Shown: in pieces, positions 36,679 through 40,029 of the stretch | Numbering within the stretch: position 1 is the first letter of the stretch | Layout of the letters: each line of letters opens with the position of its first letter | Assembly: GCA_002842145.1 (NCBI GenBank) | Contig: PHCF01000049.1 | Location: forward strand, 1-64,000 | Source of the DNA: Betaproteobacteria bacterium HGW-Betaproteobacteria-6 | Lineage (GTDB): Bacteria; Pseudomonadota; Gammaproteobacteria; Burkholderiales; Rhodocyclaceae | Length of the DNA: 64,000 nucleotides | Direction of reading: 5' to 3' | Translations under genes and position numbers: made by a program | Notes under the pieces: model-generated | Databases searched by the model: none | Seen by the model: only the letters and a program-made list of their open reading frames with translations | What the model was told of the DNA's origin: nothing

Positions 36679-37746
36679 GTGAGCCGACCCAAGAACGATA
36701 CTTTCCTGCGCGCCCTTCTCAAAGAGCCGACCGATTACACCCCGCTGTGGCTGATGCGTCAGGCTGGGCGCTACCTGCCCGAGTATTGCGAAACCCGCAA
36801 ACGGGCGGGCAACTTCCTGAACCTCTGCAAGTCGCCGGCCATGGCCTGTGAAGTGACGCTGCAACCGCTGGCCCGTTACGACCTGGACGCCGCGATCCTG
36901 TTCTCCGATATTCTGACCGTACCCGATGCAATGGGCCTCGGCCTGTATTTCGCCGAAGGCGAGGGGCCGAAATTCGAGCGTCCGCTGCGCGAAGAATGGG
37001 CCATCAACAACCTGACCGCCCCGGATCCCTACGAACATCTCGGCTACGTCATGGATGCCGTTTCGGAAATTCGCCGGGCACTCGACAACTCGGTTCCGCT
37101 CATCGGCTTCTCCGGCAGCCCCTATACGCTGGCCTGCTACATGGTCGAAGGCGAGGGCTCGAGCGATTTCCGCAATATCAAGGGCATGCTCTACAACCGT
37201 CCGGACCTGCTGCACCGCATCCTGTCGGTGACTGCCGATTCCGTGATCGCCTACCTGAACGCCCAGATCGACTGCGGCGCCCAGGCCGTGATGATTTTCG
37301 ATACCTGGGGTGGCTCGCTGTCGAATGCGGCCTACGAAGAATTTTCCCTGCAGTACATGCGTCGTATCGTTGCCGGCCTGAAAAAGGAAAAGGACGGCCA
37401 GCGCGTTCCGAGTATCGTGTTTACCAAGAATGGCGGCTTGTGGCTCGACAAGATTGCCGACATCGGTTGCGATGCGGTCGGTCTCGACTGGACCATCGAT
37501 ATCGGCGATGCGCGCCGTCGGGTTGGCGACAAGGTGGCACTGCAGGGCAACCTCGACCCGAACGTGCTGTTTGCGCAACCGGAAATCGTTGCTGCCGAAG
37601 CGAAAAAAGTGCTCGATAGCTTCGGCCCGGCCAATACCGGCCACGTTTTCAACCTGGGTCACGGCATTTCCCAATTCACACCGCCGGATAGCGTGACGGC
37701 ACTGGTCGAAACGGTGCATGCACACAGCAGGCTATTACGTAAGTAA
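36679..37746 (+). CDS. hemE: Uroporphyrinogen decarboxylase
   Basis: GTG start; [46 protein letters not shown]. Confidence 0.97.
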
Positions 37747-37774
37747 TAGCCATAAGTGAGCGGTGAGGCTTGAC

Positions 37775-37974
37775 TTATGCACAGAGTTTTGCCTCTCGCT
37801 GAAAATAAACTCCGAAAACCCCTTGACTCGGCATTGTTTGTTTAAATTATTGAATTTAAACAAATAGTGCTGTTGCTCAATATTTCGGCAGAGTGACGGA
37901 ATCCTTACCAAACCGTTACTTGGCGCCATAGTCCAAAAGAAATCCACAAAGTTATCCACAGTTTTTGTGGACAA
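37775..37974. promoter_or_regulatory. DnaA-box cluster with AT-rich palindrome in hemE-priA spacer
   Basis: TTATGCACA 37775-37783; TTATCCACA 37952-37960; TTGTCCACA on minus 37966-37974; TTTGTTTAAATT-ATTG-AATTTAAACAAA 37837-37864. Confidence 0.6.
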
Positions 37975-38022
37975 CTCAAAATCTCCGGTTTTGGGTCGCA
38001 ATAAATCCGATTTTTTGGAGAA

Positions 38023-40029
38023 ATGACGGCTTCGGCCGGAAAATCCATGCCCGTTTTGCGCATCGCCCTCGATTTGCCCCTACATCGCCTTTTTGATTAT
38101 GTGGCTGAGGCGGCGTCGACCGTAGATATCGGTTACCGGGTTCGCGTGCCGTTCGGGCGAGGCGAGCGCATTGGGGTCATCGTCGATGTTGTCCATGCAA
38201 GCGACTGGCCGCTCGATCAGCTCAAGCCGGCCGGTGAAATACTCCGCGACTTGCCGGCGCTGCCCCCGGACTTTTTCCGACTTTGCGAATTTGCGAGCAC
38301 TTACTATCAGGCCGCGTTCGGCGAGGTGGTGCTGCAGGCCTTGCCGGTCGGGCTCAAGCGTCTTGATCCACCGGAGCGTCGAAAAGGTCGGACCCCGCGA
38401 AAGGCGGAGCAGATTCAGCCTCCGGCGCTAACCGATGAGCAGGCCTCTGCGCTGGCGGCTATCGATCCGGCGGCGGGGTTTTCCGTGCATTTGCTGCACG
38501 GTGTCACTGGCAGCGGCAAAACCGAGGTCTATCTGCGCCTCGTCGAAAAGGCGCTGTCGGCCGGTCGTCAGGCCTTGCTGCTGGTTCCCGAAATCAATCT
38601 GACGCCCCAACTCGAAGGCCGGGTGCGGGCCCGCTTTCCCGATGCCGAAGTGGTTTCCCTGCACAGCGAACTGGCCGAAGCGGCGCGTGAGCGCAACTGG
38701 CGGGCAGCCTTTGCCGGCGAGGCGAGCATCGTTCTCGGCACGCGGCTTTCAATCTTTACGCCGCTGCCCCGACTCGGCCTGATCGTCATCGATGAAGAAC
38801 ATGATTCATCGTTCAAGCAGCAGGACGGCATGCGTTACTCGGCGCGCGACGTTGGTGTTTTTCGCGCCCACCAGCTTGGCATTCCCATCCTGCTCGGCTC
38901 GGCGACGCCCTCGCTCGAATCGTGGGCCAATGCCCAAGGCCGGCGCTATGGTCTGCTCACCCTGAATCAGCGGGCCAATCCGGCGGCCAAGCTACCGGCA
39001 GTGCACGTGATCAACACCAAGAAAATGGTCCTCAAGGAGGGCGTCAGCGAACCGCTGATCGCGGCCATCAAGGAACGTCTGGTGCGCGGCGAGCAAAGCC
39101 TGGTCTTCCTGAACCGCCGGGGTTACGCGCCGGTTTTGGCCTGCCCGGCTTGTGGCTGGATTTCGCGGTGCACGCGCTGCGCCGCCAACATGGTGCTGCA
39201 CCTCGCCGATCGCCGCCTGCGTTGCCACCATTGCGGTTGCGAACACCGCGTTCCGAAGGCCTGTCCGACCTGTGGCAATCAGGACATCCACCCGTTCGGG
39301 CGCGGTACGCAGCGTCTGGAAGCGTGGCTGCAGGAGCAGTTTCCCGAAGCGCGTGTGCTGCGCGTCGACCGCGATTCGGTGAAGAGCCGCAAGCAGTGGG
39401 AGGCCATGCTGGAACTCATCCACGGCGGTCAGGCCGACATTCTGGTCGGTACCCAGATGCTGGCCAAGGGCCACGATTTCCCGAAATTGACGCTGGTTGG
39501 CGCGCTCGGCGCCGATGCCGCGCTCTACGCCGCCGACTGGCGCGCCCCGGAGCGCCTGTTCGCGCAGCTCATGCAGGTTGCCGGGCGGGCTGGGCGGGCC
39601 GAACTCAAGGGCGAGGTGCTGATCCAGACCGAGTATCCGGATCACCCGCTGTTTGCCGCGCTGGTCGAGCACGACTATCCGGGATTTGCCGCCCAGCAGC
39701 TCAAGGAGCGCGAACAGGCCGGCTTCCCGCCCTATGCTTTCCAGGCCGTACTGCGCGCTGAAGCGCCGGAAATGGCCGACGCCATCGCTTTCCTCAATGT
39801 CGCCGCGACCTTGCCGCTGGTTGGTGAGCACGAAAACGTCATGATTTATGACCCGGTGCCGATGAAACTGGCCCGGCTGGCCAATCTGGAACGCGGCCAG
39901 TTGCTGGCCGAGTCCTGTTCCCGTCCCGCCTTGCAGCATTTTCTGCCGCGCTGGCGGGAGGCCATTGAAGGCATCAAGGCGCCATCGAAACTGCGCTGGC
40001 ACATCGAGGTCGATCCGCTCGAGTTCTGA
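38023..40029 (+). CDS. priA: Primosomal protein N' (replication restart helicase)
   Basis: LLHGVTGSGKTEVYLRL, VIDEEHDSSFKQQDG, zinc Cys clusters CPACGWISRCTRCAANM. Confidence 0.95.
   Translation: MTASAGKSMPVLRIALDLPLHRLFDYVAEAASTVDIGYRVRVPFGRGERIGVIVDVVHASDWPLDQLKPAGEILRDLPALPPDFFRLCEFASTYYQAAFGEVVLQALPVGLKRLDPPERRKGRTPRKAEQIQPPALTDEQASALAAIDPAAGFSVHLLHGVTGSGKTEVYLRLVEKALSAGRQALLLVPEINLTPQLEGRVRARFPDAEVVSLHSELAEAARERNWRAAFAGEASIVLGTRLSIFTPLPRLGLIVIDEEHDSSFKQQDGMRYSARDVGVFRAHQLGIPILLGSATPSLESWANAQGRRYGLLTLNQRANPAAKLPAVHVINTKKMVLKEGVSEPLIAAIKERLVRGEQSLVFLNRRGYAPVLACPACGWISRCTRCAANMVLHLADRRLRCHHCGCEHRVPKACPTCGNQDIHPFGRGTQRLEAWLQEQFPEARVLRVDRDSVKSRKQWEAMLELIHGGQADILVGTQMLAKGHDFPKLTLVGALGADAALYAADWRAPERLFAQLMQVAGRAGRAELKGEVLIQTEYPDHPLFAALVEHDYPGFAAQQLKEREQAGFPPYAFQAVLRAEAPEMADAIAFLNVAATLPLVGEHENVMIYDPVPMKLARLANLERGQLLAESCSRPALQHFLPRWREAIEGIKAPSKLRWHIEVDPLEF

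Follow-up and report, generated by a model that had tools for sequence, protein, structure and literature searches.

The spacer between hemE and priA in a Rhodocyclaceae genome probably carries a DnaA-reactivating sequence and not a replication origin

Why should the short spacer between two genes, hemE and priA, hold a group of DnaA boxes beside a perfect AT-rich palindrome? In Betaproteobacteria bacterium HGW-Betaproteobacteria-6 this spacer occupies positions 37747-38022 of the window (the whole stretch of 64,000 nucleotides that was analysed), with hemE (36679..37746, + strand) upstream and priA (38023..40029, + strand) downstream. Three DnaA boxes, the palindrome and a TTGACT hexamer were all found where an initial annotation of the window had placed them; it had taken the locus for origin-like, DnaA-titrating or a DnaA-regulated priA promoter. 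Judging from sequence, we propose instead that the spacer probably carries a DnaA-reactivating sequence (DARS), and that it is probably not a replication origin.

Elements of the spacer and their conservation

The DnaA boxes of the spacer are arranged in two parts. A distal box, TTATGCACA (37775..37783, + strand), lies 177 bp from box II, TTATCCACA (37952..37960, + strand), which stands head-to-head, at an offset of 14, with box I, TTGTCCACA (37966..37974, - strand; TGTGGACAA on the plus strand), so that the pair reads TTATCCACA-5-TGTGGACAA. Two further elements had been overlooked in the initial annotation: a weak box III, AAATCCACA (37940..37948, + strand), which has two mismatches in the window and begins 12 bp before TTATCCACA, and a putative IHF-binding motif, TAAATTATTGAAT (37843..37855, + strand), which forms the centre of the 28-bp palindrome (37837..37864), lies 109 bp from box II and deviates by one mismatch from the IHF consensus YAANNNNTTGATW. 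A conserved TTGACT/TTGACA hexamer (37823..37828, + strand) is found upstream of the palindrome, and the IHF site is followed by a conserved block, TTGCTCAATATTTCGGCA..GTGAC..AATCCTTAC (37873..37915, + strand), which precedes the core formed by boxes I to III. The pattern of this block is TTGC..AATATT..GGCA..GTGAC..CCTTAC; other families show a different conserved ..GGCAA block at this place. The window as a whole contains five strict DnaA boxes compared with 1.58 expected, a number reached by 2 of 100 shuffled sequences, and in the 400 kb around the origin of G020, a complete sister genome, no place other than this spacer has three near-consensus boxes clustered within 600 bp.

Conservation in relatives had been named beforehand as the deciding check, and the boxes were indeed retained at near-fixed spacing in 24 of 25 same-genus genomes despite diverged flanks and intervening sequence, the exception being one genome (L022) in which the spacer has been lost. 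Within the genus TTATGCACA and TTATCCACA stand 176-180 bp apart, mostly 177 bp, and in several other families the range is 176-188 bp. When the 24 genus spacers are aligned, column identity averages 0.43-0.56 over the flanks and 0.59-0.93 over the element, with its peak at the paired boxes. The proposal of a functional DnaA-binding locus thus appears to have been right, with conservation as the deciding evidence. The palindrome fared differently: it is perfect only in the genome under study and its closest relatives, and TTGA.TT.A alone is kept genus-wide. Since conservation is limited to this IHF-like centre, we rejected the ideas that the palindrome serves for unwinding or is bound by a repressor; a putative IHF site takes the place of the unwinding site suggested earlier.

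The three-box core and the IHF motif compared with E. coli loci

E. coli is the species in which DARS sites have been elucidated, and we compared the spacer with the sequences of E. coli DARS1, DARS2, oriC and datA. Read on the minus strand, the core consists of box I (+), box II (-) and box III (-) with offsets of 14 and 12, and both offsets and orientations are identical to those of DARS1 (TTATCCACT-5-TGTGGATAA-3-TGTGTATTA) and DARS2 (TTATTCACC-5-TGTGGATAG-3-TGTGAAGAA), whereas no comparable core was found in E. coli datA or oriC. According to reviews, it is the head-to-head pair of boxes I and II that functionally characterises a DARS (PMC10380432; PMC5742627). DARS1, located between bioD and uvrB, shares this core geometry, but its spacer contains neither an IHF motif (up to one mismatch) nor a distal consensus box on that side, both of which are present in the window. 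The likeness to DARS2, between ygdT and the mutH side of rppH, extends further, as its IHF motif has the same orientation and is also situated on the box III side, with a consensus DnaA box beyond it. The distances differ: the IHF motif of DARS2 is 99 bp from box II compared with 109 bp here, which is 10 bp or one helical turn longer, and its consensus box, which from the description in PMC8682772 should be DnaA box V, lies at 197 bp, whereas the distal box in the window, its presumed analogue, lies at 177 bp in opposite orientation. The window module also differs from DARS2 in its location, next to priA and at 36 kb from dnaA-dnaN. E. coli oriC resembles it in having DnaA boxes and IHF across about 200 bp, but lacks the head-to-head core, and the skew origin of this genus is found elsewhere (see below).

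The position of the IHF motif is more constant than expected by chance. The consensus used for DARS2 is TAANNNNTTGATW (PMC4245941), from which TAAATTATTGAAT differs by one mismatch. In 80 loci with the two-box layout, 55 matches to the IHF motif (up to one mismatch) fall within a single 4-bp stretch, compared with at most two per position in shuffled sequences. Among 29 loci of other Burkholderiales picked by the core only, without regard to the IHF motif, 21 have the motif 108-111 bp away from box II, ten of them as an exact match; shuffled sequences gave a mean of 0.04 and never more than 1. A shift of the IHF site by 5 bp impairs DARS2 activity (Kasho 2014), and the same sensitivity would explain the fixed spacing observed here.

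Fis sites set the module apart from DARS2. The exact Fis consensus GNNYANNNNNTRNNC has no match upstream of box II in the 24 genus spacers (shuffled mean 4.3), and another conserved block is present in the hemE-priA module; at the level of the exact consensus, the genus spacers lack the Fis sites that DARS2 needs for activation. The genome does encode a Fis-like protein, with a score below the Fis cut-off. The scores of IHF alpha and Hda are over their cut-offs, and that of IHF beta is just under.

Distribution of the module and alternative readings

The core, with up to one mismatch, is present in 98 of 150 genomes of the order, in 79 of 114 families of the class and in 37 of 100 genomes across the phylum, compared with no hits in any of the three sets for a reversed-pattern control, which keeps the composition but does not control for the symmetry of the paired boxes. 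Many genomes contain two cores. The full layout occurs in Dechloromonas, Azonexus, Azoarcus, Nitrosomonas, Duganella, Collimonas, Methylomonas, Thioalkalivibrio, Cycloclasticus and Stutzerimonas, among others. At 28 of the 80 full-layout loci and 10 of the 30 core-only loci priA is the neighbour, always in the same orientation and at a distance of about 50 to 530 bp, both in betaproteobacteria (with hemE upstream) and in other gammaproteobacteria; the same layout upstream of priA was seen in other families (G028, G031). Sites away from priA, such as the hemW-gltA interval and the region upstream of exbB, are more frequent. Although priA often adjoins the module, it need not do so, and as the module is found more often elsewhere, control of priA is not its common role.

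Several individual loci deserve mention. In a group of gammaproteobacteria comprising Woeseiaceae and relatives (L147, L153, L154 and others), the module follows a hemW-like gene and precedes the gene for citrate synthase, both identified by eye. The hemE-priA spacer of G031 (L028) contains the complete module twice, in tandem. Besides its one perfect core, the genome under study has a second module, whose core (G000:C44:38921-38951; L141) is located upstream of an exbB/exbD-like pair and whose IHF motif, at 111 bp, is exact; cores similar to this second one are present in genomes of the same genus and family. A third, weak core in this genome (C187:39602), with two mismatches and without the IHF motif, was judged to be a chance match.

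Could the spacer nevertheless be a replication origin, main or secondary? Its DnaA boxes, IHF site, AT-rich stretch and oriC-like length would fit such a role, as would its neighbour, since oriC adjoins hemE in Caulobacter. The skew, however, argues against it. In the window, where dnaA lies at 285-1676, the skew is mostly positive beyond 37.9 kb and does not switch sign there. In two complete same-genus genomes, for which it was computed in 20-kb stretches, the cumulative minimum lies near dnaA, at 2.959 Mb in G020 (dnaA 2.944-2.945 Mb, priA 2.886 Mb, module 73 kb from the minimum) and at 258 kb in G024 (dnaA 246-247 kb, priA 203 kb, module 54 kb from the minimum), with an unchanged slope at hemE-priA in both, although the resolution is blunt (about 10 kb) and gene orientation may bias the values. 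In G028 the module, at 142 kb, is about 1.5 Mb away from the skew switch (1.59-1.75 Mb). An origin-like cluster of boxes sits in the dnaA-dnaN spacer, where several DnaA boxes occur at fixed positions in nearly all sister genomes, and the head-to-head core of the hemE-priA spacer is unlike oriC arrays (PMC10380432). Because of the skew minima and the boxes at dnaA-dnaN we place the origin elsewhere; oriC of the genus is most likely the dnaA-dnaN spacer, about 36 kb from the module. We thus abandoned the origin-like reading of the initial annotation, and consider an origin at hemE-priA, main or secondary, extremely improbable in light of the two sister genomes and G028. In the window the dnaA-dnaN spacer (1677-1934) contains several of these conserved boxes, and positions 1816-1855 form an AT-rich stretch. 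The dnaA gene of G028 (L056-L075) is located at 1.28 Mb, 0.3-0.5 Mb off the skew switch, which would indicate either an origin away from dnaA or a rearrangement.

Two other functions were weighed against a DARS. In a datA-like site, boxes flanking an IHF site would form a complex with ATP-DnaA that hydrolyses ATP after initiation, or would simply titrate DnaA, for which a position near the origin helps; the module is about 36 kb from dnaA-dnaN and should therefore be replicated early. The box(+)-68-IHF-box(+)/box(-) order resembles the E. coli datA order of box 2-65-IHF-97-paired boxes, and the IHF motif has the same orientation in both; the window thus shows the DnaA box-IHF-DnaA box layout of datA, in which spacing is critical. 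However, the paired boxes of datA are offset by 12 and have neither box III nor the DARS core, of the four E. coli loci in the comparison only the two DARS have the 14/12 three-box core, and the module of G028 is far from the skew switch. We therefore consider a datA-like function unlikely; titration of DnaA was the nearest of the options raised initially, but the head-to-head three-box core together with the IHF motif indicates a DARS instead. A priA promoter regulated by DnaA and IHF would account for the many priA-linked loci with their single orientation and for the conservation of the TTGAC hexamer, yet most modules are located elsewhere, the distance to priA varies where they are linked, the IHF spacing is constant whatever the neighbour, and no good -10 element exists at proper spacing. 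As a function shared by these loci, the promoter proposed in the initial annotation is thus not upheld, and for the spacer itself we regard it as very unlikely. A sigma-70 promoter for priA was rejected as well: a single 9/12 match was found (shuffled mean 0.5), with a weak -10 element overlapping the IHF site.

Proposed mechanism and meaning

If the spacer carries a DARS, protein binding, ADP release from DnaA and an influence on cell-cycle timing can be inferred as follows. ADP-DnaA would bind to boxes I, II and III, and the head-to-head arrangement of boxes I and II would put two AAA+ domains face to face, leading to the release of ADP. IHF bound at 37843-37855 would bend the DNA such that the distal part, that is the box at 37775 and the conserved block, contacts and activates the core. 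Apo-DnaA might then load ATP and become able to fire oriC, and high levels of ATP-DnaA might shut the site off through the distal box, by analogy with DARS2 box V. More tentatively, and as a possibility we would not rate as probable, reactivation by IHF-bent DARS may be common in beta- and gammaproteobacteria, where a genome would often have two modules, of which one commonly adjoins priA; in the present lineage the switch may be a factor binding to the conserved block and not Fis.

Conservation of DARS has been reported for species close to E. coli (PMC4245941, PMC8682772), and the presence of DARS in beta- and gammaproteobacteria or in many proteobacteria has been stated in general terms (PMC5742627, PMC10380432); because of these general mentions, this kind of element has to be considered known. 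No description of a priA-linked DARS form or of its layout was found in the literature searched (priA, betaproteobacteria, Ralstonia), although an earlier report may exist.

The comparison sorts the parts of DARS2 into general ones, namely the core and IHF, and Fis, which seems to be local. It also implies that origin finders relying on clusters of DnaA boxes could take a DARS for oriC. Finally, the fixed layout of a core with IHF at 109-110 bp is searchable and points to concrete loci in environmental betaproteobacteria, whose replication timing has barely been studied, and as most of the sampled families of beta- and gammaproteobacteria share this layout, the recharging of DnaA is now testable well outside E. 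coli.
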